This document shows, one piece after another, positions 13,112 to 28,981 of a DNA stretch of 52,561 nucleotides. Origin of the DNA: an uncultured Oscillospiraceae bacterium (lineage in GTDB: Bacteria; Bacillota; Clostridia; Oscillospirales; Oscillospiraceae); contig CALXDH010000017.1 in the NCBI GenBank assembly GCA_944387015.1, positions 1-52,561 of the forward strand. The letters run 5' to 3'. A model generated the notes under the pieces. It had not been told where the DNA came from and searched no databases. It saw only the letters and a list, made by a program, of their open reading frames with translations. A program made the translations under genes and the position numbers. Within the stretch, counting starts at the first letter, position 1, and every line of letters begins with the position of its first letter.

Positions 13112-13154
13112 CAAAGAAAAGGCCAGGAAGTCAACCACCGTTGACTTCCTGGCC
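13112..13154 (-). terminator. Terminator of the Mrp-type operon
   Basis: A perfect 15-bp inverted repeat (13121-13135 with 13140-13154, core GGCCAGGAAGTCAAC) is followed on the minus strand by TTTTCTTT. It separates the ten-gene operon from the ZIP gene. Confidence 0.88.
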
Positions 13155-13178
13155 TTGCAGAAAGCAGTCTCTCGTATA

Positions 13179-15122
13179 TCAAAGCAGCAAATACAGCAGC
13201 AGCAGGATCAGTCCGCCGCCTGCCAGCATCAAGTCGAAGGAGAAGGTATCTCCCACGATGGAGCGTCTGGGCTTGCGGGCATAGATGCCGAAGTTCTCAT
13301 CGTGCTTCGGCACAAAGATGCCCGGCGCACGGGTGAAGAGGATCTTCTCCCCAATCAGAACCATCAGATCTCCCGCAGAGGAGACCACCCGGGCGCAGAA
13401 CGCTCCCACAAAGGCCAGGCCCCGCAGCACCGGCCGATATACCAGATTCTCCAGGTCCAGCCAGGCCGGCCAGCGATCCAGGTATTCCATCTCACTGCCT
13501 GCCCGGCGCATCAGCAGCCGCCGGATCACCAGCAGATAGACTGCAGCGCCGATGGCGAGGGAGATGCAGGCCCCCTTGAGATTGACCCACGTAAAGTAGT
13601 GCACCGCATGACCGTGATCCGCCATCAGAAAGGTCCCTGCACGTTCTGCCAGAGGCTCCATGGTAAACCCAGGCGTCAATCCCATTCCCAGCAGGGCCGC
13701 CGCGCCCAGGCCCAGTGCCACACTGGTCTCCCGGGACATGTATTCCCGCAGGCCAAGGTGCAGACCCGAGGCACGGGGAGAGACAAAAATCGCCACAAAC
13801 AGCTTGGTCATATAGGCCGCCGTCAATCCGCCGGAGATCAAAAACAGCCATTCCACCGCCTGAAAGGCCGTGGCGGACAGACCCTCGTGCTCCAGCAGGT
13901 GGATGTATTCCACAATGCTCTCATGGAGCAGCGTCTTGCTGACATATCCGGAAAAGCCCGGCACACCCGCGATGGAGGCCGCGCCTATGAAAAAGACGCC
14001 CTTGAGCCAGGGTTTGTTCCGGCCCCAGCCCCGCAGATCATTGAGATTCAGAGAATGGGTACTCACATAGATGACGCCCGCCGATACGAACAGCACCAGC
14101 TTGATAAGACTGTGGTTGAGCATGTGCAGCACGGTTCCCCAGGCTGCCAGGGCATTCTCTCCGCTGAGGTAGCCCTGCATGGCGGCCCCCACCAGAATGA
14201 ACCCGATCTGGGACATGGAGGAGCAAGCCAAAGTCCGCTTCAAATCAATGGAAAAGACTGCCAGCACAGCGCCCAGTACCATAGTCACCACGCCCAGGGC
14301 CAGTACCACTGTATTCCAGGGCAGGTCCGCCCAGAACAGATAACGGGAAATGATCAGCACGCCGAAAACGCCGCTTTTGGTCAGAATGCCGCTGAGCAGC
14401 GCCGAAGCCGGAGCCGGAGCCACCGGATGCGCCTTGGGCAGCCAGATGTGCAGCGGAAACATGCCCGCCTTGGCGCCGAAACCCACCAGGCAGCAGCCGC
14501 CTGCCACATACAGCTGTGTCCGCCGCTCCGCAGGCAGCGCTTCCGCCAGCGCCCGGAGCTGGCTGATCTCCAGGGTCCCAAAGAGATCCTGAAGCAGCAG
14601 CAGTCCTACCAGCAGCGTCATGCCGCCGATCACCGCCACCGCAAGATAGGTCCCACCTGCCCGGAGGGCCTCCTCCGTCTCGTTTTGGACCACCCAGACA
14701 TAGGAGGTGAAGGACATCATCTCAAAAAACACAAACAGCGTGAAGAGGTCCGCCGCCAGGAACACGCCCATCAGGGCCCCCTGGGTCAGCAGCCAGAAGC
14801 AGTAATAGCGGTTGCAGCCCTCTGCATGGGCAAAGTACGCCGGGCTGTTGAGACCGGTCATGGCCCACAAGAAGCAGGCCGTCACCACCAGCAGCGTCCG
14901 CAGGCTCCCCGCTGCAAAATGCAGCCCCAGTCCGCAGACGCCCGGCAGCGTCAGCTGCGCATCTGGGAAGAGGATCAGCGCCGCCGCACAGGCCAGCTCG
15001 ATCAGCGGCAGGGTCCGAACGAAATGGTTGCGCCACGCCCGGCTGTGACGGCGCAGCGGATATACCGCCGGGGAGGCCAACATGGGCAGCAGAACGAGAC
15101 AGGCAATCAAGATACCTTCCAT
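13179..15122 (-). CDS. Proton-translocating antiporter-like subunit, NuoL/MrpA-N type (647 aa)
   Basis: Largest of four paralogous NuoL/M/N-like membrane subunits in this operon, with about 14-16 helices. The proton-path residues of the family are present: Glu134 in LFVFFEMMSF, Lys218 in GFGAKAGMFPLHIWLPKAH, Lys249 in ILTKSGVFG, and a Lys in the late helix GYVSKTLLHES. The C-terminal 150 residues form an extension ending in a membrane helix (LAGGGLILLLLYLLL), reminiscent of NuoL or the N-terminal half of MrpA, without the usual MrpA tail; those tail domains are separate genes upstream. It is the last gene of the operon, 12 bases after its neighbour. Confidence 0.86.
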   Translation of the reverse strand: MEGILIACLVLLPMLASPAVYPLRRHSRAWRNHFVRTLPLIELACAAALILFPDAQLTLPGVCGLGLHFAAGSLRTLLVVTACFLWAMTGLNSPAYFAHAEGCNRYYCFWLLTQGALMGVFLAADLFTLFVFFEMMSFTSYVWVVQNETEEALRAGGTYLAVAVIGGMTLLVGLLLLQDLFGTLEISQLRALAEALPAERRTQLYVAGGCCLVGFGAKAGMFPLHIWLPKAHPVAPAPASALLSGILTKSGVFGVLIISRYLFWADLPWNTVVLALGVVTMVLGAVLAVFSIDLKRTLACSSMSQIGFILVGAAMQGYLSGENALAAWGTVLHMLNHSLIKLVLFVSAGVIYVSTHSLNLNDLRGWGRNKPWLKGVFFIGAASIAGVPGFSGYVSKTLLHESIVEYIHLLEHEGLSATAFQAVEWLFLISGGLTAAYMTKLFVAIFVSPRASGLHLGLREYMSRETSVALGLGAAALLGMGLTPGFTMEPLAERAGTFLMADHGHAVHYFTWVNLKGACISLAIGAAVYLLVIRRLLMRRAGSEMEYLDRWPAWLDLENLVYRPVLRGLAFVGAFCARVVSSAGDLMVLIGEKILFTRAPGIFVPKHDENFGIYARKPRRSIVGDTFSFDLMLAGGGLILLLLYLLL

Positions 15123-15134
15123 TCTTCCACCCCC

Positions 15135-16625
15135 TTACAGCACACCCTGGCTCACCAGTGCCAGGAAGCGGATCAAACCATCGGAAACCAGCGCCAGCAG
15201 CACACCTGACGCCGTCAAAAGGATCAGCGGCACCTTCATAGACCAGCCGGGATCCCGGATCCGGTCCAGAGCGGCTGTGTCCAGCTGCCCTACCGGGAAA
15301 TAAGCGCGGGCCACGATGGTGATGAGGTACAGCGTGGTCAGCAGTGTGGAGAGGATCAGCGCCCCGATGCCCACATAGGCCATCGGATTGCCGGAGGCCA
15401 CCGCTCCCTCCGCGATCATCCACTTTCCCGCAAAGCCCCCCAAAGGCGGCAGGCCGATCAGGGCGAAGGAGGAAATGGTAAAGGTTGCAAAGGTCACCGG
15501 CATCACCCGGCCGCAATCCTCCAGTTCATAGACATATTCCCGGCCGCTCTTGTGGATGATCGCGCCGGCACAGCAGAACATGGTGATCTTCACAAAAGCG
15601 TGGTAGACCATGTGGGTCAAGCCGCCCAAGAGGCCCGCCGGGGTCATCAGCGTCAGGGAAAAGAGGATGTAGGAGAGGTTGCTGACGGTGGAAAACGCCA
15701 GCCGCCGCTTGAGATGCGGCGTCCGCAGCGCCCGGGCGGAACCATAGACGATGGTCACGATGGTCGCGGCCATCACCACGTTCTGGGCCCAGGTCCCCCG
15801 CAGGAAGTCCGCGCCGAAGCCGAAGTAGATCAGCCGCACGATGGCGAAGGCGCCTGCCTTCACCACTGCCACTGCATGCAGCAGGGCGGAGACCGGCGTC
15901 GGCGCCACAGAGGCATCCGGCAGCCACTTGTAGAAGGGGAAGATCGCCGCCTTGACGCCAAAGCCGAAAAATGCAGCCACAAATACGATCAGCAGCGTGT
16001 TCTCATGGCCGGCGATCAGGTTGGGATCCAGCACGCCCCCATAGGTGAAGTTCAGGTGTCCCACGCCGTAATTGAGCAAAAAGACCATCCCGATGAACGC
16101 GAACGACGCGCCGGAGAGGGAGTAGACCACGTACTGCCGTCCGGCATAGCGGGCCTTCTCATCCATGCCATGCATCACCAGGGGAAGAGTCGCCAGCGTC
16201 AGCAGCTCGTAGAAGAGGTACAGGGACAAGAAGTCCTCGGAATACGCAATGCCCAGCACCACACCATAGGCCATGAGCCAGAAGGAGAAAAAGCGGTTCT
16301 CATGTCCCTCGTGGGACATATAGTCCAGAGCGTACGCCGTCACCAGGGGCCAGAGCACCGACACGATGCCGCCATATACCATGGACGCCCCGTCGATCCG
16401 CAGGGAAATGGAAAAGCTCTCAGAAAAGCTGACCAGAATGCAGGCCAGGGCCTGTTCCCCCCGCAGCAGTGTCAGCGCGATACAGGACAAGGACAGCACC
16501 GAGGTCACCAGCACCGCCGCCATGATATAACTGCTGCGCACCCTGCGGCTCTTGGGCTGCAGGCACAGCAGGCCGATCCCCAGCAAAATGGGCAGCAGGA
16601 TCGGGAATGTCAAAAAACGGTGCAT
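15135..16625 (-). CDS. Proton-translocating antiporter-like subunit, NuoL/M-like (496 aa)
   Basis: Membrane protein of the proton-conducting transporter family (PF00361 type), about 14 helices. Key residues are Glu140 in LYLFYELLTL, Lys225 in GFGVKAAIFPFYKWLPDA, Lys256 in AVVKAGAF and a Lys in GGFAGKWMIAEG. The HxVAVVKAG segment, with His250 just before it, is closer to NuoL-type subunits than to MrpD. It probably forms one ion or proton channel of the complex. Gaps to its neighbours are short (12 and 43 bases), consistent with one transcript. Confidence 0.86.
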   Translation of the reverse strand: MHRFLTFPILLPILLGIGLLCLQPKSRRVRSSYIMAAVLVTSVLSLSCIALTLLRGEQALACILVSFSESFSISLRIDGASMVYGGIVSVLWPLVTAYALDYMSHEGHENRFFSFWLMAYGVVLGIAYSEDFLSLYLFYELLTLATLPLVMHGMDEKARYAGRQYVVYSLSGASFAFIGMVFLLNYGVGHLNFTYGGVLDPNLIAGHENTLLIVFVAAFFGFGVKAAIFPFYKWLPDASVAPTPVSALLHAVAVVKAGAFAIVRLIYFGFGADFLRGTWAQNVVMAATIVTIVYGSARALRTPHLKRRLAFSTVSNLSYILFSLTLMTPAGLLGGLTHMVYHAFVKITMFCCAGAIIHKSGREYVYELEDCGRVMPVTFATFTISSFALIGLPPLGGFAGKWMIAEGAVASGNPMAYVGIGALILSTLLTTLYLITIVARAYFPVGQLDTAALDRIRDPGWSMKVPLILLTASGVLLALVSDGLIRFLALVSQGVL

Positions 16626-16668
16626 GGGGCACCTCCCTTCTCAAATCGCCGGCTCTTCACAGCGCCGC

Positions 16669-18120
16669 TCACCCGAACAGCTGGCCTGCCAGCTGACTGA
16701 GCCACCGGATCAGGCCGCCCGGAAACAGTCCCAGCAGCAGACAGGCCGCCGCAAAGGCGATCAGCGGCCCCGTCATCTGGGGACCCATCTCCTTGCGTTC
16801 GGCGATGAATTGTTTTCCCGGGAAAAATCCGTTGGTCACGATGGGCAGCAGATACCCGGCCGTCAGCAGTGCCGAGACGATCAGCACCACCAGTCCCGCA
16901 ATGCCGAAGCCCCACAGGGGCGCCGACAGTCCCGCCGACACCAGATACCACTTGCTGACAGCCCCCGCCATGGGCGGAATACCAATGAGGGAAAGCGCCG
17001 CCAGCGTAAAGCACATCATGGTCACCGGCATCCGCTTGCCGATCCCCCGCAGCTGATCCACCCGCAGATAGTTGGTGGAGAAGATGATGGCGCCCGCCCC
17101 CAGGAACAGTGCATCCTTTGCCAGGGCGTGAAAGACCATCTGCAAAAGGGATGCCTGCACGCCCTCCGGCGTCAACAGCAGCAATCCGAAGAGCACATAG
17201 GACACCTGGCTGACGGTGGAATAGGCCAGCCGCCGCTTGAGGAGCTTCTCCCGGTAGGCCAGCATGGATCCCACAAACACCGTGGCCAGAGCCAGCGTCA
17301 GCAGCACATACTGGGGCCAGCTGCCTTGGAGAAAGTCCACGCCGAACATGTAATAGGTCACCCGGATCACCGCCAGCACACCGCCCTTGGTGATGACGCC
17401 GGAGAGCACGGCGGACGCCGGTGCCGGGGCCACAGGGTGGGCCGCAGGCAGCCACGCCTGCATGGGCACCATGCCCGCCTTGGCGCCGAAGCCCACGATC
17501 ATCAAACAGTAGATCACCAGCAGCAGCGGACGGTGCTGGGCAGCCCGCACCGGGTCGATTGCGCCGCCGGCGGCAAAGTCCGGTGCCGCCATGTAGTAGG
17601 CGATGAAGAAATATCCCGCCAGCGCCATGCCGGCGCCGAACACGGAATACCCCAGGTACTTGAATCCTGCCCGCCGGGCAGCAGAAGTGCCATTGTGCAG
17701 CACCATCGGCACCGTGATGAGGGACATCATCTCAAAGAACATGTACATGGTGACGAAGTTGGCAGCCATGGCCAGTCCCGCCAGCACCCCCAGCGTCATG
17801 GTGTAGACGGTCATGAAAGATCGCTCCCCACCGGCGTGACGGATATAGGGGAAGGAGAAAATCAGAACCGGCACCCAGATACAGCACACCAGCACCAAAA
17901 AGAGTTTGGCCAGGCTGTCGTTCCGCAGCGCCAGACGCAGGCCGCTTTGAATGGTCAGCAGATCCAGCCGCTGCTCCGGCAGGAGGCACACCACCAGAGC
18001 CAGCACGGCGGTGCCCAGGATCAGCGCCAGCGCCAGATGCTCCCGCGCCTGTTCACTTTTCTGCCGGAACACGAATACGCCGCCGATCACCGGCAGCAAA
18101 ACAGGCAGCAACAGCAGCAT
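16669..18120 (-). CDS. Proton-translocating antiporter-like subunit, NuoM/MrpD-like (483 aa)
   Basis: Third NuoL/M/N-like subunit. Glu130 in MYMFFEMMSL, Lys214 in GFGAKAGMVPMQAWLPAAH, Lys245 in GVITKGGVLA and a late Lys in GAVSKWYLV keep the full proton-path pattern. The APAPASAVLSG motif is very like the one in the 13179-15122 subunit, suggesting a duplication within the operon. About 14 hydrophobic helices. The gene lies 15 bases after the MrpD-like gene. Role inferred: an additional proton or cation channel in an Mrp-type complex. Confidence 0.86.
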   Translation of the reverse strand: MLLLLPVLLPVIGGVFVFRQKSEQAREHLALALILGTAVLALVVCLLPEQRLDLLTIQSGLRLALRNDSLAKLFLVLVCCIWVPVLIFSFPYIRHAGGERSFMTVYTMTLGVLAGLAMAANFVTMYMFFEMMSLITVPMVLHNGTSAARRAGFKYLGYSVFGAGMALAGYFFIAYYMAAPDFAAGGAIDPVRAAQHRPLLLVIYCLMIVGFGAKAGMVPMQAWLPAAHPVAPAPASAVLSGVITKGGVLAVIRVTYYMFGVDFLQGSWPQYVLLTLALATVFVGSMLAYREKLLKRRLAYSTVSQVSYVLFGLLLLTPEGVQASLLQMVFHALAKDALFLGAGAIIFSTNYLRVDQLRGIGKRMPVTMMCFTLAALSLIGIPPMAGAVSKWYLVSAGLSAPLWGFGIAGLVVLIVSALLTAGYLLPIVTNGFFPGKQFIAERKEMGPQMTGPLIAFAAACLLLGLFPGGLIRWLSQLAGQLFG

Positions 18121-18135
18121 AGGGTCCCTCCCGTT

Positions 18136-19656
18136 TCAAGTTCCCATCAAGGCGATTCCCGCCTCGAGCACATCAGTAATGGGGTGATAGAAAATGCCCA
18201 GCACAAAAATTCCCGCCATCAGCGCAATCGCCGCAGTGGTAAAGGAGCGGTCAAAGGCCAGATCCTCCGGCCTGGTATCCTCCAGAACGTGCTGCTCCGC
18301 TTCTGCCGGCGGCCGCACCCAGATGGCCAGCAGCGCCGGTACATAGTAAAGTGCGTTGAGCACTGTGGACAGCGCCAGGGTCACCAGCGCCAGCACCGTC
18401 CGGTTGGTGGGCAATGCCGCGTTGGCCAAATACAGCTTGGAGACAAATCCGCCGAAGAGCGGGATACCGATCATGGAAAGGGCGCCTACCGTAAAGCCCA
18501 GGCCGGCGCTCACGTCCCGATAGGCACTGCCCCGCAGGTTCTTGAGGCTCTTGTGGTGGCCGCTGACCGCGGACAGACGCCCGGCGCAGCAAAAGAGCAG
18601 CGGCTTGCAGCAGGCGTGGACCAGGATGTGGAAGCAGGACGCCACCACACCTGCGGTCGTCCCCAGGCCCAGGCCCATGAAGATGTAGCCGATCTGGGCA
18701 ACAGAGGAGTAGGCCAGCATCCGCTTGACGTGGTATTCCCGCATGGCCTCCAAAGACCCCAGGATCATGCCCAGAAGTCCAAAGGCCAAAATCACGTTTG
18801 TCACGCCCAGCTCTCCCATCAGCTCCATGGAGAACACCCGCATCATCATAGTGATCATCAGTACGATGTATCCCTTGAGCACCAGGCCCGAGAGCATGGC
18901 TGAAGATGCCGTGGTGGCGCCGCCGTGGGCATCCGGCAGCCAAAGGTGGAAGGGGAACATGGCGCTTTTGATGCCAAGTCCTCCGATGATCAGTCCCACC
19001 GCCACCGTCAGCGGGATCCGGTAATCGCCGCTCTCTGCCAGCTCCGCCACCGCCTGGGCAAGGGAGGGCATCAGGAGGTAGCCGGTGATGCTGTTGAGCA
19101 GCGTCAGTCCGATAAGAAACAGTCCCGAGCCCAGAAGGCTCATAAATAAGTACCGGATGGTGGCGATCAGATTGGGACCGTTGTCCTTGGCCATCACCAG
19201 TGCACAGGCGGCGATGGTGCTGATCTCGATGAACACATATCCGGTAAAGACGTCGTTGGTGTAGACCAGGGCCAGCAGCGATGCCTCCAGCAGGTTCACC
19301 ATGGTGAAGTACAGCCGCAGCTTGCCCGGCAATACATCGTGGAAAAGATCCCGCTTGCCGCCTGCCAGCGCCAACGCAAGCACCACGGAAAACACCATGG
19401 CCAGCAGCGCCTGCAGCGGTCCGCACTGGATCGCGTTTCCATAGGGAGCCGCAAAGCGGCCCATGCTGTATGTAAAGCTGAGATTGCCGCCGTAGGTATA
19501 TTGCAGTACCACAGCGGAGAGCACCGCGATAATGCCCGCCACCGTCACCGTCATCCAGTAGCACACACGGCCCCGGGGGATCACGGCCGAGACGATGCCC
19601 GTCAAAATCGCCAGGAAAATACACAAGAAGGGCAGGTTTTCAACAAAAGGGCGCAT
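18136..19656 (-). CDS. mrpD: Na+/H+ antiporter subunit D-like (MrpD/MnhD), 506 aa
   Basis: The antiporter subunit next to mrpC, the position of mrpD in canonical Mrp operons. Glu144 in YVFIEISTIA, Lys230 in GGLGIKSAMFPFHLWLPDAH, Lys261 in GLVLKGY and a late Lys in GGFVSKLYLANAA are intact. The PDAHGGATTASSAMLSG stretch is typical of MrpD/MbhH proteins. ATG 19656 is chosen because the protein then starts 2 bases after the mrpC stop; the longer reading overlaps mrpC. With MrpA-type domains it would make up the Na+/H+ exchange path. Confidence 0.88.
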   Translation of the reverse strand: MRPFVENLPFLCIFLAILTGIVSAVIPRGRVCYWMTVTVAGIIAVLSAVVLQYTYGGNLSFTYSMGRFAAPYGNAIQCGPLQALLAMVFSVVLALALAGGKRDLFHDVLPGKLRLYFTMVNLLEASLLALVYTNDVFTGYVFIEISTIAACALVMAKDNGPNLIATIRYLFMSLLGSGLFLIGLTLLNSITGYLLMPSLAQAVAELAESGDYRIPLTVAVGLIIGGLGIKSAMFPFHLWLPDAHGGATTASSAMLSGLVLKGYIVLMITMMMRVFSMELMGELGVTNVILAFGLLGMILGSLEAMREYHVKRMLAYSSVAQIGYIFMGLGLGTTAGVVASCFHILVHACCKPLLFCCAGRLSAVSGHHKSLKNLRGSAYRDVSAGLGFTVGALSMIGIPLFGGFVSKLYLANAALPTNRTVLALVTLALSTVLNALYYVPALLAIWVRPPAEAEQHVLEDTRPEDLAFDRSFTTAAIALMAGIFVLGIFYHPITDVLEAGIALMGT

Positions 19657-19658
19657 CT

Positions 19659-20030
19659 TCAGTCGTCCTCCTTCCCTGCCCGCTCCAGCAGTTCCCACAG
19701 TTCGATGGTCCCGTAACGGCGGTAGATCCGCTGGATCAGCGCCAGGGAAAACGCCGTGATGCTCACGGACACCACGATCCCCGTCAGCACGAGGCCGCTG
19801 GGAATGGGGTTGATGTACAGCGGGTCAAAGCCCCGGTCCCCCACGATGGGGGCCACGCCTCCGTCGATGTAGCCCAGGGAGGCCAGCAGCAAAAATACCG
19901 CGGAGTCCATGATGTTGAAGCCCACCACTTTTTTCAGCAGATTCTGCTGCAGCAGCAGGTTCATAAACCCGATCCCGAAGAGGATGACAGCCGTCACCGC
20001 GAACCGGTTTTGAAGGATGGTCTCCAGCAT
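19659..20030 (-). CDS. mrpC: Na+/H+ antiporter subunit C (MrpC/MnhC, NuoK-like), 123 aa
   Basis: Three-helix membrane protein homologous to NuoK. The middle segment LLKKVVGFNIMDSAVFLLL and the later DPLYINPIPSGLVLTGIVVS are characteristic of MrpC/MbhG (the motif before the third helix is normally DPLPQALVLTAIVI). Acidic residues within the second helix that carry protons in NuoK are partly replaced by the NIMDSA segment. Length is usual (about 115-125). It is 39 bases after the MrpB-type gene and 2 bases before mrpD. Confidence 0.9.
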   Translation of the reverse strand: MLETILQNRFAVTAVILFGIGFMNLLLQQNLLKKVVGFNIMDSAVFLLLASLGYIDGGVAPIVGDRGFDPLYINPIPSGLVLTGIVVSVSITAFSLALIQRIYRRYGTIELWELLERAGKEDD

Positions 20031-20069
20031 GGGACGGACTCCTTTCCAGGCGCATGCGCGCCTCTTCTC

Positions 20070-20966
20070 TCAAAATTCGCCTCTGGAAAACAAGACGTAA
20101 AAGCCATAGACCGTGCAGGCCACCACCAGACCCACCGCCAGGTCGATCAAAAGCGTCATCCCGGTGAGGTAGTTCGGCATCTGGTTGGCACCCAGGAAGA
20201 TGTAGATGCCGTACAGCAGCACATACAAAACCAGTCCGAAAGTCCGCACTGCGGCATAGCGCCGCGCGTCCATCAAGACCCGCATCTGCTTGGGACCGTA
20301 AGCCGCGGAATAGAGGATCAGTCCCGCGCCCAGGATCGTACCGCCGGAAAAGCCGCCGCCCGGCGAGACCTCGCCATTGAGCAGCACATAGAGTGCAAAC
20401 AGGAAAACAAAGGGCACCAGTACCCAGGCCGCCCGGCGCAAAATCAGATCCGGATGGGCCGCCAGGATACCGTCCTCCCGCTCCTGCTTTTGCTGGTCAT
20501 GCTCGTCGGTGTTCTTCTCGTCCCGGAGCAGCAGCATCATCACCGCCGCCACCGCCAAAAACAGCACACAGCTTTCGCCCAGCGTATCGAATCCACGGTA
20601 ACTGAGGATCATTGCCGTCACCACGTTGGCCGAGCCGGTCTCCTCCAGGCCGTATTCCAGATAGTGTTCCGCCACCTCGTTGTTGATGGGGTTATCCGCC
20701 TCGCCGAAGGTGGGCATCGTCAGCACCGCCGCCATCAAAATGCCCATCAGCGCCAGGCAGATCAGCACGGCGCACACCGGATACCACCTGCGAAACCGGT
20801 GCAGCCGGTGCTTATCCTGGGTGGCAAATTCCGCGTCCGAACGCTGGACATGACGGGGCGGACGCTGCTCCATGACGAACAGCGTCTGATCCTTGGGCTC
20901 CCGGTCACCGTCCACCCATTCCACCAGCCGGAGCCACCAGCTCTGTTTGCTCGGCGTCTTATTCAT
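20070..20966 (-). CDS. Fused MbhE (MrpA C-terminal) - MrpB subunit (298 aa)
   Basis: Two Mrp domains in one chain. Residues about 61-150 match the last domain of MrpA (MbhE type), with two helices around NVVTAMILSYRGFDTLGE at 114-131. Residues about 175-298 are an MrpB domain with four helices and the hallmark SPGGGFSGG at 201-209. A charged linker (150-170) joins them, and the first 60 residues are hydrophilic. In canonical Mrp operons the first part is the tail of MrpA and MrpB is a separate gene, so this is a rearranged domain layout. It overlaps the preceding gene by 8 bases. Confidence 0.87.
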   Translation of the reverse strand: MNKTPSKQSWWLRLVEWVDGDREPKDQTLFVMEQRPPRHVQRSDAEFATQDKHRLHRFRRWYPVCAVLICLALMGILMAAVLTMPTFGEADNPINNEVAEHYLEYGLEETGSANVVTAMILSYRGFDTLGESCVLFLAVAAVMMLLLRDEKNTDEHDQQKQEREDGILAAHPDLILRRAAWVLVPFVFLFALYVLLNGEVSPGGGFSGGTILGAGLILYSAAYGPKQMRVLMDARRYAAVRTFGLVLYVLLYGIYIFLGANQMPNYLTGMTLLIDLAVGLVVACTVYGFYVLFSRGEF

Positions 20967-21210
20967 CCCGGGTCCCCTTCAGCGCATGGATTTTTTTCAG
21001 TGTCAGGAAGAACAAAATACTGGTGATACCGGCGCCTACCGCCGCCTCCGTGATGGCCAGGTCCGGGGTCTGCAGAAGACTCCACAATACCGCCATCAGC
21101 AGGGAAAAGGCCATGTACACGATCACCGTGGTCAAAAGCCGCTTGCAGAGGGGGGCCGCCACCGCACAGACCACCAGTCCCGCCAGCAAAATGTACTCTA
21201 AAACGATCAC
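20959..21210 (-). CDS. MbhD-like subunit (MrpA C-terminal domain as separate protein), 83 aa
   Basis: Small protein of three helices corresponding to the MbhD/DUF4040 domain that follows the antiporter part of MrpA. The signature TPDLAITEAAVGAGITSILF is close to the TPDVALTEAAVGAG motif of that domain, including the conserved Glu. Start is GTG 21210, overlapping the mrpG stop by 4 bases. A separate MbhD is normal in archaeal Mbh and Mrp clusters but not in the classic bacterial Mrp, where it is fused to MrpA. Confidence 0.87.
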   Translation of the reverse strand: MIVLEYILLAGLVVCAVAAPLCKRLLTTVIVYMAFSLLMAVLWSLLQTPDLAITEAAVGAGITSILFFLTLKKIHALKGTRDE

Positions 21211-21530
21211 CGCTCCTCCACCTCACATTCCTTCCGAATATCAGAGATGGTGAATACTTCCATCTCCGCGATCAGGTGGCTGGCCACCGGACTCGTCAGC
21301 CACAGGAACAAAAACACCAGCAGGGTCTTTGCCGCCGGAAGCGACCAGCCGTGAAGGAAAATCAGCCCCACCAGCACGCAGAAGATGCCCAGCGCATCCC
21401 CCACAGCGGCGGCGTGCATCCGGTTGAGGACGTAATCCAGCCGATAAAGGCCCAGTACAGCCGAGAAGAACACAAACAGTCCGAAGAGCAAAAAGGCCAA
21501 TCCGATCACGGTGAGAATCCCGTCAAACAT
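21207..21530 (-). CDS. mrpG: Na+/H+ antiporter subunit G (MrpG/MnhG), 107 aa
   Basis: Three-helix membrane subunit. The family motif around GLYRLDYVLNRMHAAAVGDALG (normally RLPDxYTRLHAxTKxxTLG) is present, followed by a third helix and a short cytosolic tail. Its role in the Mrp complex is structural; it is needed for assembly and activity in other bacteria. It overlaps mrpF by 8 bases and the MbhD-like gene by 4. Confidence 0.88.
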   Translation of the reverse strand: MFDGILTVIGLAFLLFGLFVFFSAVLGLYRLDYVLNRMHAAAVGDALGIFCVLVGLIFLHGWSLPAAKTLLVFLFLWLTSPVASHLIAEMEVFTISDIRKECEVEER

Positions 21531-21846
21531 GTCTGCTCCCTCCCCGCTGTTTTTTCTGTCCCGGCATGCCCCGGCGCTTGAGCAGCACCAGACGTGCCAC
21601 GATCACCACCGCCAAAAAGCTCAGCAGTGCATAGACCAGCGCCACATCCACCAGGAAATCCTCCCGCAGCAGCACCGAAAGCAGCACGATCTCGGCCACC
21701 ACCAGGGTGTTGATGACGTTCACCGCAATGATCCGGTCCGTAAACCGGGGACCCAGCACGGCCCGCAGCAGCGACGCCAGAATCAGCAGGGCCAGCACAA
21801 CGGCGCTCCCCTGCAAAACCACAGTTTTGATGGTCTCCACGCTCAC
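21523..21846 (-). CDS. mrpF: Na+/H+ antiporter subunit F (MrpF/MnhF), 107 aa
   Basis: Three-helix subunit with the family core RAVLGPRFTDRIIAVNVINT (usually RxxxGPxxxDRVVALD) and a middle segment VLLREDFLVDVALVYALLSF. It ends in a basic tail. Start GTG 21846 overlaps the mrpE stop by 4 bases (GTGA), so translation is coupled. Length is slightly above the usual 90-100 because of the tail. Confidence 0.9.
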   Translation of the reverse strand: MSVETIKTVVLQGSAVVLALLILASLLRAVLGPRFTDRIIAVNVINTLVVAEIVLLSVLLREDFLVDVALVYALLSFLAVVIVARLVLLKRRGMPGQKKQRGGSRHV

Positions 21847-22301
21847 GCCTCCAGCTTCTCCAGCCGACGCTGGAACTCGCAGTCCTCGATCCCTTCTCCC
21901 AGGCTCTTGTCCAGGGTGTGGACCAAAAAGCGGCCGTCCTCCGCCAGAACGGTGATCGTTCCGGCGGTCAGGGTGATGGAATCCGCCAGGATCGCCTGGC
22001 TCAAACCGGTTTTCAGCGTGGTGTCAAACCAGATCAGCTTGGGCTCCATCTTTCTGCCCCGGGTATAGATCAGCCGCATCACCACAAAGCCCGCCCGCAG
22101 CATCTCCGCCACGAGATGCCCCAGGTATTTCAAAAACGACAGGCCCTTGCCCAGGGTCCCCCGTCGTGGTGAGAGCCGGTATCCCAGCACCTGATGGCAA
22201 AAACAGCTCAAAAGCGCCGACGCCACCACGCCCCACAGACACACATGCAGCGTCACTTCCCCGGCCAGCAGCAGCCAGAGTATGAAAAACAGAATCGGCA
22301 T
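21843..22301 (-). CDS. mrpE: Na+/H+ antiporter subunit E (MrpE/MnhE), 152 aa
   Basis: First gene of the operon. MrpE has an N-terminal membrane pair and a soluble cytosolic domain. The family features are visible: LGHLVAEMLRAGFVVMRLIYTRG, then SQAILADSITLTAGTITVLAEDGRFLVHTLD, matching the LANxITLTPGTLTxxLxxxxLxVHxLD pattern. The soluble domain ends GIEDCEFQRRLEKLE. ATG 22301 lies after GGGAGG. A good promoter lies 67-94 bases upstream. Confidence 0.92.
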   Translation of the reverse strand: MPILFFILWLLLAGEVTLHVCLWGVVASALLSCFCHQVLGYRLSPRRGTLGKGLSFLKYLGHLVAEMLRAGFVVMRLIYTRGRKMEPKLIWFDTTLKTGLSQAILADSITLTAGTITVLAEDGRFLVHTLDKSLGEGIEDCEFQRRLEKLEA

Positions 22302-22367: not shown

Positions 22368-22396
22368 ATATTATAGGGTTGGTTTCCTCCTGTCAA
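22368..22396 (-). promoter_or_regulatory. Promoter of the Mrp-type operon
   Basis: On the minus strand -35 TTGACA (22391-22396) and a -10 region reading TATAATAT; TAATAT at 22368-22373 gives 17-base spacing, TATAAT at 22370-22375 gives 15. The strong match suggests substantial basal expression by the main sigma factor. The LysR gene lies immediately upstream. Confidence 0.75.
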
Positions 22397-25013: not shown

Positions 25014-25042
25014 TTTACTTTTCAAAGTTGTCAGTGTATAAT
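25014..25042 (+). promoter_or_regulatory. Promoter of the BusR/Opu operon
   Basis: -35 TTTACT (25014-25019), 17-base spacer, consensus -10 TATAAT (25037-25042). The -10 box overlaps an alternative ATG at 25041, which argues against that start for the regulator gene. Confidence 0.65.
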
Positions 25043-25079
25043 GGAGCTATCATTTCAGATCAGGAAAGAAGGAGTGGTC

Positions 25080-25709
25080 ATGCGGCATGCGGTGATACCC
25101 GCACAATATCTGCAAATCGCACTGGACCTTGCCTCCCGCATTGCCAGCGGAGAACTGCCGGAGGGCACCCGTATTTACGGCAGATCGGTCATGGCATCGG
25201 AGTACAGCGTATCCCCGGAGACCATCCGGCGGGCCCTGCGGCTGCTGGCGGACATGAAGGTGGTAGAGGTCAAGCCCCAGAGCGGTGCAGTTGTTCTCTC
25301 CGCCGACAACGCCCGGCGCTACATCGAAACCTTTGAAGAGGACGCGGACGTTCACGCCCTGCAGATCCAGCTCAAGGAACTTTTGGGAAAGTATACGGAA
25401 CTCAACCGGCGGATGACGGATGTGGTCGCCGCGCTGGTGAAGAGCCGGGATACCTTTTCCGCCGCGGAAGGCCCCCTTCCCAACTATGAAGTCCAGGTAC
25501 CCAAGAACTCTCCCCTGATCGGCAAGAGTATCGGATCCCTGAAATTCTGGCAGTCCACCGGCGGCACCATCATCGCCATCCGCCGGGGACAGACCATGAT
25601 CCTCTCGCCGGGTCCCTACGCAGAACTCTATGACGGAGACGTCATCATCCTTGTGGGCAGCCCCGCCGCTGCGGAAGCCGCCCACCATCTGGTCACAGCA
25701 AAGGAGTGA
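25080..25709 (+). CDS. busR: GntR-type regulator with RCK_C (TrkA-C) domain, BusR-like (209 aa)
   Basis: N-terminal GntR winged helix (about 5-75, YSVSPETIRRALRLLADMKVV), a helical linker (about 85-125) and a C-terminal RCK_C domain (about 135-207, ending DGDVIILVG). This is the architecture of BusR of lactic acid bacteria and streptococci, which binds c-di-AMP through RCK_C and represses an osmoprotectant importer. Its first downstream neighbours are such an importer, 7 bases away. ATG 25080 follows GAAGGAG. The name rests on architecture and context; c-di-AMP binding is inferred. Confidence 0.82.
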   Translation: MRHAVIPAQYLQIALDLASRIASGELPEGTRIYGRSVMASEYSVSPETIRRALRLLADMKVVEVKPQSGAVVLSADNARRYIETFEEDADVHALQIQLKELLGKYTELNRRMTDVVAALVKSRDTFSAAEGPLPNYEVQVPKNSPLIGKSIGSLKFWQSTGGTIIAIRRGQTMILSPGPYAELYDGDVIILVGSPAAAEAAHHLVTAKE

Positions 25710-25716
25710 AGTACCA

Positions 25717-26829
25717 ATGATTCAATTTGAACATGTCTGCAAAAGTTACGGCAAGACCCCCATTTTGAAGGACCTGAACTTCACCATCCCCGACGGGCAG
25801 TTTGTGGTCCTCATCGGCCCCTCCGGCTGCGGCAAAACCACCACCCTCAAGACCATCAACCGGCTCATTGACATCGATTCCGGCACCATCTCCATCGACG
25901 GCAAGGATATTCACGCTCAGGATAAGGTAGAACTGCGCCGCCACATCGGCTACGTCATCCAGCAGATCGGTCTGTTCCCCAACATGACCGTGGCTCAGAA
26001 CATCTGCGTGGTGCCCCGGCTTTTGAAGTACGACAAGCAAAAGCAGGCGGACATCGTCCAGAATCTTTTGAAAATGGTGGGCATGGAGTCCCAGGCCAAT
26101 AAATACCCTTCCGAGCTCTCCGGCGGCCAGCAGCAGCGCATCGGCGTGCTGCGGGCTCTGGCAGCCTCTCCCCCCATCGTGCTGATGGATGAGCCCTTCT
26201 CCGCCCTGGACCCCATGACCCGGGAGACGCTTCAGGACGAAGTGAAGAACATCCAGCAAAAGCTGGGCAAGACCATCGTCTTTGTCAGCCACGACATGGG
26301 CGAGGCATTGAAGCTTGCGGACGTCATCATCTTCATGGAAAGCGGACAGGTGGTCCAGATGGCCTCTCCTGAGGAGATGCTGGAGCACCCGGCCAATGAT
26401 CTGGTTCGCAACTTCCTGGGAAAGCATACCCCGGAGACTTCCGCTCCCTCCAAGGTGGAGCATTTCATGCGCACCAATATTCTCACGGTCAAGCGGGACC
26501 GGGGCGTTCTGGAGTGCGCCGAGCGCATGGCCCGGGGCAGCGTGGATACCCTCCTGGTCACCGACGAGGCAGACCGGTACGTGGGCACCGTCTCCATCGG
26601 CGACATCCGCCACTGGGGCCGGGAGCTGACCAGCATCGAGCCCCTGGTGCGCCAGACCGCCCGGACCGTCCGGGTGGGCGACGAGGCCAAGGAGAGCTTC
26701 GATTACCTGCTGGATTCCGGCGCCAACTACGTGGTGGTCCTCAACGAGGATGACACCATCGCCGGCATCGTCACCAAAACCAGCGTCGCCCGCTCCGTGG
26801 CGGAGAACCTCTGGGGGGATGCCAAATGA
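25717..26829 (+). CDS. Osmoprotectant-type ABC transporter ATPase with tandem CBS domains (370 aa)
   Basis: OpuCA/ProV-like ATPase energising uptake of a quaternary amine such as glycine betaine, carnitine or choline. Walker A GPSGCGKTT at 34-42, signature LSGGQQQR from 134, Walker B with Asp158/Glu159 in LMDEPFSALD, and switch His in VSHDMGEA. From about 245 two CBS domains follow (HFMRTNILTV... and QTARTVRVGD...), as in OpuCA, where they sense ionic strength or nucleotides. ATG 25717 follows AAAGGAG; the longer reading overlaps the regulator. It overlaps the permease gene by 4 bases. Confidence 0.92.
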   Translation: MIQFEHVCKSYGKTPILKDLNFTIPDGQFVVLIGPSGCGKTTTLKTINRLIDIDSGTISIDGKDIHAQDKVELRRHIGYVIQQIGLFPNMTVAQNICVVPRLLKYDKQKQADIVQNLLKMVGMESQANKYPSELSGGQQQRIGVLRALAASPPIVLMDEPFSALDPMTRETLQDEVKNIQQKLGKTIVFVSHDMGEALKLADVIIFMESGQVVQMASPEEMLEHPANDLVRNFLGKHTPETSAPSKVEHFMRTNILTVKRDRGVLECAERMARGSVDTLLVTDEADRYVGTVSIGDIRHWGRELTSIEPLVRQTARTVRVGDEAKESFDYLLDSGANYVVVLNEDDTIAGIVTKTSVARSVAENLWGDAK

Positions 26830-27482
26830 TGGAGACTTTGCGGACCCTCTTCCAGGACTACGGCGCCGAGCTGGTGACCGCCATCGGCCAGCACACCGTG
26901 TATGTGCTGGTGTCCGTGGCCATCGGCTTTGTGGTGGGACTGCTGGCGGGTATTCTGCTCTCCCGGATCCCCCACCGCCTTTCCGGCTTTATCATCCCGA
27001 TCCTCTCTATTTTCCAGACCATTCCCGGCCTGGTATTCATCGGCGTGCTCTTTATCTGGTGGGGCAACATCTATCCCACCGTGATCGTGGCCCTCAGCGT
27101 GTATGCCATGTTCCCGGTGCTGAAAAACACCTATACCGGCATTCTGGGTGTGGAGGGCAAGTACATCGAGGCTGCCAAAGGCTGCGGTATGTCCCCCCTG
27201 CAGGCGCTTGTAAAGGTGGAGCTGCCCCTGGCCATGCCCACCATCATCGCCGGGCTGCGGATGGCCGCCATCTACACCGTCTCCTGGGCGGTGCTGGCCT
27301 CCATGATCGGCCTGGGCGGCCTTGGCAACTTCGTCTACCGCGGCACCTCCTCCAATAACAACACTCTGATCCTTCTGGGCGCCATTCCGGCCGCCATTTT
27401 GGCCATCCTCTTCGGCGCCGTCATCGACGTGCTGCAGAAGAAGGTCACGCCCAGAGGGCTGAAGAAGGAGGTGGGCAGATGA
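26826..27482 (+). CDS. Osmoprotectant-type ABC transporter permease, OpuCB-like (218 aa)
   Basis: Inner-membrane permease with about six helices. The ATPase-coupling EAA-type loop is visible as EAAKGCGMSPLQALVKVELPLAMP, and IPGLVFIGVLFIWWGN is typical of the OpuCB/ProW group. Four-base overlaps with both neighbouring genes show a tightly coupled operon. It probably pairs with the permease half of the next protein to form a heterodimeric channel. Confidence 0.9.
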   Translation: MMETLRTLFQDYGAELVTAIGQHTVYVLVSVAIGFVVGLLAGILLSRIPHRLSGFIIPILSIFQTIPGLVFIGVLFIWWGNIYPTVIVALSVYAMFPVLKNTYTGILGVEGKYIEAAKGCGMSPLQALVKVELPLAMPTIIAGLRMAAIYTVSWAVLASMIGLGGLGNFVYRGTSSNNNTLILLGAIPAAILAILFGAVIDVLQKKVTPRGLKKEVGR

Positions 27483-28981
27483 GCTGGGACGTCATCTTTG
27501 AGCACCTCTTCATCGTACTGGCCGCCAGCATTTTGTCCATCACTGTGGGATTGCCCTTGGGCATCTGGGCTTATGTGTCCCGTCGGGCCCGGCCGGTGAT
27601 CCTCCGGATCGTGGACCTGCTGCAGACCATCCCCTCTCTGGCGCTTTTGGGCATCATCATGGTGGTGCTGGACCCCGGCAAGCTGACCGTTATCATCGGC
27701 ATCACGCTCTATTCCCTGCTGCCCATCGTCCGCAATACCTGTCTGGGCCTTCAGGAAGTGGACCCCGGTGTCAAGGAAGCGGCCCGGGGCATGGGCATGA
27801 GCAAGCCCTACCGTATTTTAATGGTGGAATTTCCCCTGGCCTTCCCCACCGTCTTTACCGGCATCCGCATCGCCGTGGTAAATGCCATCGGCACCGCCGT
27901 GTTCGCAGCCTTCGTGGGCGGCGGCGGCCTGGGCGGCGTCATCACCCAGGCCATCCGCATCTCCGACATGGGCATGATCGCCCTGGCCACCGGGGTGCTC
28001 ATGGTGATCGCCGTGGTACTGGACCTCATTATGAGCTGGTTTGAAGGCCAGATGCGCAAGTCCCGGGGCGGATCCAAGAAGATGTGGATCCCTGTGGCGG
28101 CTATTTTGCTGGCCTTCTGCCTGCTGCTGCCCTATGGCCGCAGCTCCACCGGCGATATTCTGCTCTACGACGGCGACTATTCCGAGACGCAGCTGATGCA
28201 TCACATGGTGAAGATGCTGGTGGAGGATCAGACGGATCTGACCGTCACGATCCAGGACCAGATGTCCCAGGTGAACAACTGGAACGCCCTGAAGGACGAC
28301 AGCCACACCTGCGATCTCATGATCTCCTATGACGGCACGCTGCTGACCACCTTCTTCCATCAGGATACCCCTGACGTGCCGGAGGGCATGACCATCTATG
28401 ACTACGTGAAGGAAAAAGCCCTGGAGGACTATGACCTCCACGTGCTGGGCAAGCTGGGCTTTGAGAACACCTACGCCATCGGTGTTTCGGAGGAGCTGGC
28501 GGAGGAATATGACCTGGAGACCATCAGCGATCTTATTCCCATTGCGGACCAGCTGACTTTCGGCGCGGAGCAGGAGTTCTTCACCCTGGAAGGCAGCATG
28601 AAGTACAACCCCTTCGTGGAGTACTACGGCCTGAACTTCAAGGACTACAGCCCTGTGGACATGGGCCTCAAATACGCCGCCATCGAAAACGGCAGCTTCG
28701 ATGTTTCCGTGGTCTACACCACCGACGGCCTCAACCGCAAGGTGGGGCTCAAGGTCCTGGAGGACGACAAGAGCTTCTTCCCCGATTACTATGGCGTCTT
28801 TGTGGTCCGGGGCGATATTCTGGAGCAGTACCCGGAGCTGGAGGGCATCCTGGAACAGCTCACCGGCACCATCTCCACGGACCAGATGGCAGAGATGACC
28901 TATCAGGTGGACGTGCAGGGCCGCACTGTGGACGACGTGGCCCGGGAGTTCCTGGTAAGTCAGGGATTGCTGAGTGCGTGA
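27479..28981 (+). CDS. Permease fused to substrate-binding protein (OpuC/EgtU-like), 500 aa
   Basis: Residues about 1-205 form a permease with an EAA loop (EAARGMGMSKPYRILMVEFP). A further helix at about 201-222 then leads to an extracytoplasmic binding domain (about 230-500) of the OpuAC/ProX type. Such permease-SBP fusions occur in choline/betaine importers and in EgtU, the ergothioneine importer subunit. The BusR-like regulator favours a compatible solute, but ergothioneine or another trimethylammonium compound cannot be excluded, because the aromatic cage cannot be placed with certainty. A strong terminator follows at 28994. Confidence 0.88.
   Translation: MSWDVIFEHLFIVLAASILSITVGLPLGIWAYVSRRARPVILRIVDLLQTIPSLALLGIIMVVLDPGKLTVIIGITLYSLLPIVRNTCLGLQEVDPGVKEAARGMGMSKPYRILMVEFPLAFPTVFTGIRIAVVNAIGTAVFAAFVGGGGLGGVITQAIRISDMGMIALATGVLMVIAVVLDLIMSWFEGQMRKSRGGSKKMWIPVAAILLAFCLLLPYGRSSTGDILLYDGDYSETQLMHHMVKMLVEDQTDLTVTIQDQMSQVNNWNALKDDSHTCDLMISYDGTLLTTFFHQDTPDVPEGMTIYDYVKEKALEDYDLHVLGKLGFENTYAIGVSEELAEEYDLETISDLIPIADQLTFGAEQEFFTLEGSMKYNPFVEYYGLNFKDYSPVDMGLKYAAIENGSFDVSVVYTTDGLNRKVGLKVLEDDKSFFPDYYGVFVVRGDILEQYPELEGILEQLTGTISTDQMAEMTYQVDVQGRTVDDVAREFLVSQGLLSA

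Follow-up and report, generated by a model that had tools for sequence, protein, structure and literature searches.

A ten-gene Mrp-type operon with four antiporter-type subunits in an uncultured Oscillospiraceae bacterium, probably encoding a stand-alone cation/proton antiporter

A ten-gene operon in the genome of an uncultured Oscillospiraceae bacterium encodes four NuoL/M/N-type subunits (here named Da, Db, Dc and Dd) together with a set of Mrp- and Mbh-like small subunits, and raises the question of what such a row of channels serves. It could be an antiporter with more channels than usual, or the membrane arm of a complex whose redox module is encoded elsewhere; both options were put forward in an earlier note on the 52,561-nucleotide stretch of contig CALXDH010000017.1 (assembly GCA_944387015.1) that carries the operon, referred to below as the window. 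The first option is the best reading: the operon probably specifies a monovalent cation/proton antiporter of the Mrp type (CPA3) that stands alone, and would be a four-channel form of a kind already known.

The operon consists of ten minus-strand open reading frames (ORFs) between positions 13179 and 22301, in the order E-F-G-MbhD-(MbhE-MrpB)-C-Da-Db-Dc-Dd and with intergenic gaps of -8 to +43 bases. The ORF positions and the Pfam domains of the ten products (MNHE, MrpF, MnhG, MbhD, MbhE plus MnhB, Oxidored_q2 and four Proton_antipo_M) agree with the gene order claimed in the earlier note. The genes are as follows.

21843–22301, minus strand: MrpE (MNHE), the first gene of the operon; Pfam PF01899, E=1.1e-25
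21523–21846, minus strand: MrpF; Pfam PF04066, E=3.3e-14
21207–21530, minus strand: MrpG; Pfam PF03334, E=1.3e-22
20959–21210, minus strand: MbhD-like, a portion of the MrpA C-terminal domain; Pfam PF13244, E=2.1e-19
20070–20966, minus strand: MbhE-MrpB fusion; Pfam PF20501 and PF04039, with PDB alignments
19659–20030, minus strand: MrpC/NuoK-like; Pfam PF00420, E=9.5e-19, with alignments
18136–19656, minus strand: Da, antiporter-type, nearest MbhH/MrpD/NuoN; PF00361, E=1.5e-51, top PDB match 6cfw_H
16669–18120, minus strand: Db, extra antiporter-type subunit, sister of Dc with an MrpD-like helix 8; PF00361, trees and motifs
15135–16625, minus strand: Dc, MrpA/NuoL-like antiporter-type subunit with His and Lys in helix 8; PF00361, PF00662 and alignment with MrpA
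13179–15122, minus strand: Dd, last antiporter-type subunit, with a HyfB/MbhH-like core and a C-terminal extension; PF00361

The channel residues are intact in all four D subunits, and every Glu and Lys listed in the earlier note is present. Each subunit has a Glu in helix 5, a Lys in helix 7, a Lys in helix 8 and a late-helix Lys in helix 12, these being E144/K230/K261 and K407 in Da, E130/K214/K245 and K390 in Db, E140/K225/K256 and K401 in Dc, and E134/K218/K249 and K396 in Dd. In family alignments, in which the window row is included, rows are length-filtered to 0.92–1.25 of the window protein and some are duplicates (L045 and L116 are one contig, and L040 and L093 probably likewise), no row of Da (89 rows), Db (80 rows) or Dd (72 rows) departs from these residues. 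The 79 rows of Dc all have E140, K225 and K401; K256 in helix 8 varies, being Lys in 64 and Asn in 15. The D genes are under purifying selection relative to three relatives (dN/dS 0.07–0.37, with dS partly near saturation).

The host genome (2.42 Mb in 72 contigs, 99.58% complete) gives no sign of a complex I- or hydrogenase-type redox module. It contains exactly four matches to PF00361, namely Da, Db, Dc and Dd, and zero matches to the NuoB, NuoD and NuoH models, each of which is matched in 11 of 14 control genomes. The second option of the earlier note, in its complex I or hydrogenase form, is not supported by these searches. Of 21 genomes taken to carry the cluster, 14 by reading of the cluster and seven by a long MbhE-MrpB frame alone, 20 likewise have no NuoD match; 13 more genomes with an MbhE match were left out of this search. 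In the sole exception (G260) NuoD lies on a different contig, adjoining an additional Mrp-like cluster (L051) that has a single antiporter-type subunit. A survey of neighbours found 97 same-strand genes at most 300 bases away in 95 loci; 96 were scanned, the commonest family being a TrmB-type methyltransferase (8/96), and the 25 neighbour families listed of 121 include no redox pump.

Rnf is present in the host. It is found in 21 of 23 genomes with the cluster, several of which were assigned by profile score alone, versus 36 of 37 without, so that two cluster-bearing genomes have no Rnf; co-occurrence is no higher than background and Rnf as an obligate partner is rejected. At 3 distinct loci of 95 (L045, which is the L116 contig, L047 and L095) the cluster has a divergent Rnf operon some 190–225 bases upstream. 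A decarboxylase Na+ pump was also sought, and OAD_beta was not found in the host. We take the host's F-type c subunit to lack the Na+ motif, and its V/A-type K subunit presumably resembles the Na+ type; given these two subunits and Rnf, a link between the Na+ and H+ circuits is plausible in this host, although Rnf, being almost ubiquitous in the group, is not specific evidence for it.

The gene order is conserved well beyond the window. A 14-row profile built on the MbhE-MrpB fusion recovers at least 488 confirmed relatives in genome_contigs, of which the best 80 were used; all ten genes are present in one order and on one strand in 62 of these 80 named-genome loci, the remaining 18 are truncated, with a locus end no more than 400 bases away, and no locus has another order (0/80). 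As the loci are the top-scoring relatives, the figure describes conservation within the type. Record titles of the best 80 are mostly Lachnospiraceae, metagenome-assembled genomes of Clostridia and Oscillibacter, and include Hungatella hathewayi, Schaedlerella arabinosiphila and Butyricicoccus pullicaecorum. A separate order-level set of 13 loci has nine complete clusters, three cut by contig ends (L041, L042 and L044, with Dd of L042 in two overlapping frames), and one, L043, that is considered below. Among 392 genomes drawn across the class, 10 match the profile at E 1e-100 or better; six of these were read, of which five have all ten genes (the window, L038, L227, L228 and L230) and one, L229, is cut.

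In the probable mechanism, a cation module of Mbh type (E, F, G, MrpB, MbhD and MbhE) together with MrpC would carry a cation, most likely Na+, out of the cell, and protons would enter through the row Da-Db-Dc-Dd; the exchanger may also run in reverse. Both Na+ and the direction of transport are inferred. In the scheme given in the relevant part of eLife 59407, cation movement at the junction of MrpC and the MrpA C-terminal domain is electrostatically coupled down the row of antiporter-type subunits, two subunits giving about two protons per cycle. If the four D subunits share one complex, as we infer, up to four protons might be coupled, the extra channel would raise the H+ to cation ratio or the driving force, and a weak proton motive force could then expel Na+, or a Na+ gradient expel protons. 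Part of the expected cation path is conserved: D127 and E131 of the MbhE-MrpB fusion are present in 96/96 rows and E55 of MbhD in 95/95, and, from match ranges with 6z16_A, D127 and E131 sit at the expected place of D792 and E796 of MrpA, which the same part of eLife 59407 names as the cation exit.

Comparison with known systems places the operon closest to Mrp. Canonical CPA3 Mrp (also named Mnh, Pha or Sha) likewise has homologues of MrpB, C, D, E, F and G in one operon, is free of redox subunits and has intact Glu/Lys channel residues; it differs in having two antiporter-type subunits rather than four. The window operon fits group 3 Mrp, defined in the portion of the Mrp review concerned (PMC5703873) by the presence of all subunits in irregular order. 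That review treats two-channel clusters and group 3 variants with a doubled mrpD, and states that clusters of anaerobes differ markedly; a four-channel form is not described in its relevant sections. The stand-alone Mrp of Pyrococcus furiosus and the Mrp modules of MBH and MBS share the Mbh-like small subunits, and MbhH (6cfw_H) is the top PDB match for Da, Db, Dc and Dd alike. According to the parts of PMC8415708 that deal with them, these systems have no more than two antiporter-type subunits (one or two), a redox module is part of MBH and MBS, and the stand-alone Mrp has even fewer channels than two-channel Mrp. The NuoD/NuoB-like catalytic and NuoH-like subunits of MBH, MBS or group 4 hydrogenases are not found in the host. 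Forms of complex I with four and five pumps are catalogued in the pertinent part of an mBio 2022 paper (PMC9040806), among them Nitrospira 2M, which has an additional NuoM, the rhizobial green type and Complex_I_3 of Manganitrophaceae; these resemble the window operon in having four (or five) antiporter-type subunits and differ from it in having a full redox arm and, in 2M and Complex_I_3, a 26-residue helix insertion.

The nearest relatives are stand-alone clusters with three D subunits, which are common in other clostridia (e.g. L168, L213, L214, L217–L221, L225 and L200, on plasmid EAL2_808p of Peptoclostridium acidaminophilum) and also occur in one haloarchaeon. They read E-F-G-MbhD-MbhE-B-C followed by three D genes that match Da, Dc and Dd, and differ in that MbhE and MrpB are unfused and Db is lacking. 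No description of a stand-alone four-channel Mrp was found in the open-licence literature. The earlier note's term 'undescribed system' nevertheless goes too far: the cluster extends known stand-alone Mrp-type clusters, and three-subunit relatives are common.

Phylogenies point to the source of the fourth subunit. In an 87-protein tree, with support from the Shimodaira–Hasegawa-like approximate likelihood ratio test only, the first D of the three-D clusters is joined by Da, their middle D by both Db and Dc, and their last D by Dd. A careful 49-protein tree has Db and Dc as one clade (100/100) beside the middle subunits. Alternatives that force Dc or Db with the middle subunits are disfavoured (p = 0.0365 and 0.0344 in the approximately unbiased, AU, test). 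This is the third such test and the fairer one, preferred over a second that gave very small p values with constrained rows that were not a natural group. A duplicated middle D is thus the most likely source of the fourth subunit, in a lineage that also has MbhE and MrpB fused; the extra NuoM of some complex I forms is a parallel. The fourth subunit of two other four-D clusters (L223 and L224) is not Db-like in the tree, so that four channels were probably reached on two or more occasions. An MrpD-like subunit from the rhizobial complex I cluster of Sinorhizobium meliloti (L202, pSymA) falls, with 99/96 support, beside the middle D of multi-D clusters from haloarchaea and clostridia.

The four subunits differ in their matches and motifs. 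Da, with MbhH as its top match, is placed after MrpC as MrpD is. Helix 8 of Dc is of the MrpA/NuoL type (LLHAVAVVK) and aligns with MrpA of 7qru and 6z16; of 13 rows listed from other clusters, middle or Dc-type, 12 keep the stretch, and L215 has Tyr in place of the Lys. Helix 8 of Db reads LSG..TK, like that of MrpD and Dd, and its position 240 is Ser in 80/80 rows, where the Dc equivalent is His250 in 79/79. The core of Dd aligns with HyfB, and its top NCBIfam match is the HyfB model at a score under that model's cut-off. No MrpA-like Lys-Glu pair in helix 12 was found in Da, Db, Dc or Dd of the window. Around helices 7 and 8 only (Db residues 201–240), Db is 0.64 identical to Dd and 0.50 to Dc, a hint that Db (16669–18120) may have undergone conversion by Dd (13179–15122) or convergence with it; tree tests of this segment for conversion gave AU p values of 0.387 to 0.672.

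Several observations weigh against the antiporter reading, in which cation/H+ exchange is the predicted function, or against parts of it. There is no one-piece MrpA, its place being taken by MbhD, MbhE-MrpB and separate NuoL-like subunits. In MrpC the canonical His37 and His40 (6z16) are faced by S/T43 and F/Y46, with an acidic D42, shared with MbhG, adjoining S/T43; the cation site is therefore, by its sequence, of the MBH type rather than the canonical Mrp type. The locus L043 (genome G069) has MbhD to Dd and no MrpE, F or G in 9.7 kb upstream, on a contig that continues. With an earlier, smaller set of proteins the alternatives to the Db/Dc duplication were not rejected (AU p = 0.113 and 0.224). 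Finally, Dd does not show the 26-residue lateral-helix insertion of four-pump complex I; the median length of its C-terminal stretch is 106 residues where clusters have four D subunits and 102 where they have three, and that of the window, at 70, is the shortest. As the NuoL and HyfB profile alignments end before the extension, a bracing helix in Dd has no alignment support, and a lengthened one was not seen, the C-terminal stretch not being consistently longer.

Three other explanations were weighed. The D subunits might not all belong to one complex, with Db, Dc or others serving as alternative parts of different Mrp isoforms; we regard this as unlikely, for while the sister paralogues Db and Dc differ in helix 8 type and the lateral helix of Dd is not lengthened, the four genes share one operon in the fixed order of the 62 complete loci, and the other subunits are single-copy, no doubled or separate E-G sets being seen in the loci examined. 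The operon could also supply the membrane arm of a pump driven by redox chemistry, with an oxidoreductase of some type other than NuoB/D/H encoded elsewhere. A phylum-level genome (G384; L192 and L193) offers a precedent in a five-D Mrp-like cluster among [FeFe]-hydrogenase-type and molybdopterin-oxidoreductase genes, a link of FDH-Ehr with Mrp-like subunits is proposed for other phyla in the relevant part of PMC6349859, and the three divergent Rnf operons, some 200 bases off, also speak for it. Set against these are the host's want of NuoB, NuoD and NuoH matches, the neighbour families listed and the equal frequency of Rnf without the cluster, and we consider a redox-driven pump quite unlikely. 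The G384 cluster itself comprises one Da-, one Db- and three Dd-like subunits, and Cache-domain genes are also nearby. A substrate other than Na+ or K+ against H+, such as Ca2+ or inorganic carbon, is in our view likewise quite unlikely. It draws on the Thermomicrobium Mrp reported as a Ca2+/H+ antiporter (in the part of PMC5703873 on that system), on the single NuoL-like subunit of DAB bicarbonate transporters (in the corresponding part of PMC8305020) and on the MrpC site; the full E-F-G-B-C-D set is that of cation antiporters, and the flanks hold ZIP, LysR, SHMT and LysM-GH18 genes, with no DabA/MpsB of the DAB/MpsAB carbon transporter among the eight flanking window proteins scanned, the genome not having been searched for them.

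Redox-free Mrp machines may form a natural series of two, three, four and perhaps five channels, and in the lineage of the window tandem duplication of the MrpA/NuoL-like middle subunit, one copy becoming MrpD-like, may have raised the number of protons per cation as a counterpart of the extra NuoM of 2M; we put this forward tentatively, as a possibility we rather doubt. Whether each subunit carries its own proton or most leave by the last one is disputed for complex I (in the part of eLife 59407 on this point), and exchangers that differ mainly in channel number and run no redox reaction would allow a direct comparison of H+ to cation ratios. Gut Lachnospiraceae and Oscillospiraceae with the four-channel form include many that are uncultured and some in culture, and in them it may also be a main link between the Na+ and H+ circuits.

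The operon is bounded by the following candidate signals.

22368–22396, minus strand: promoter-like box TTGACA-17-TAATAT upstream of MrpE, a sequence motif
13119–13156, minus strand: intrinsic-terminator-like hairpin, 17-pair stem, 3' of Dd; strong

Promoter-like sites are not in excess (3 observed versus 3.3 expected from shuffles). The hairpin, the ZIP and LysR neighbours and the lack of a catalytic gene in the flanks are all as the earlier note described them. A few kilobases from the operon, positions 25041–28981 of the window encode a GntR-TrkA_C regulator and, after it, an ABC transporter of the osmoprotectant type (BPD_transp_1, OpuAC); the domain pair of the regulator may resemble that of BusR.

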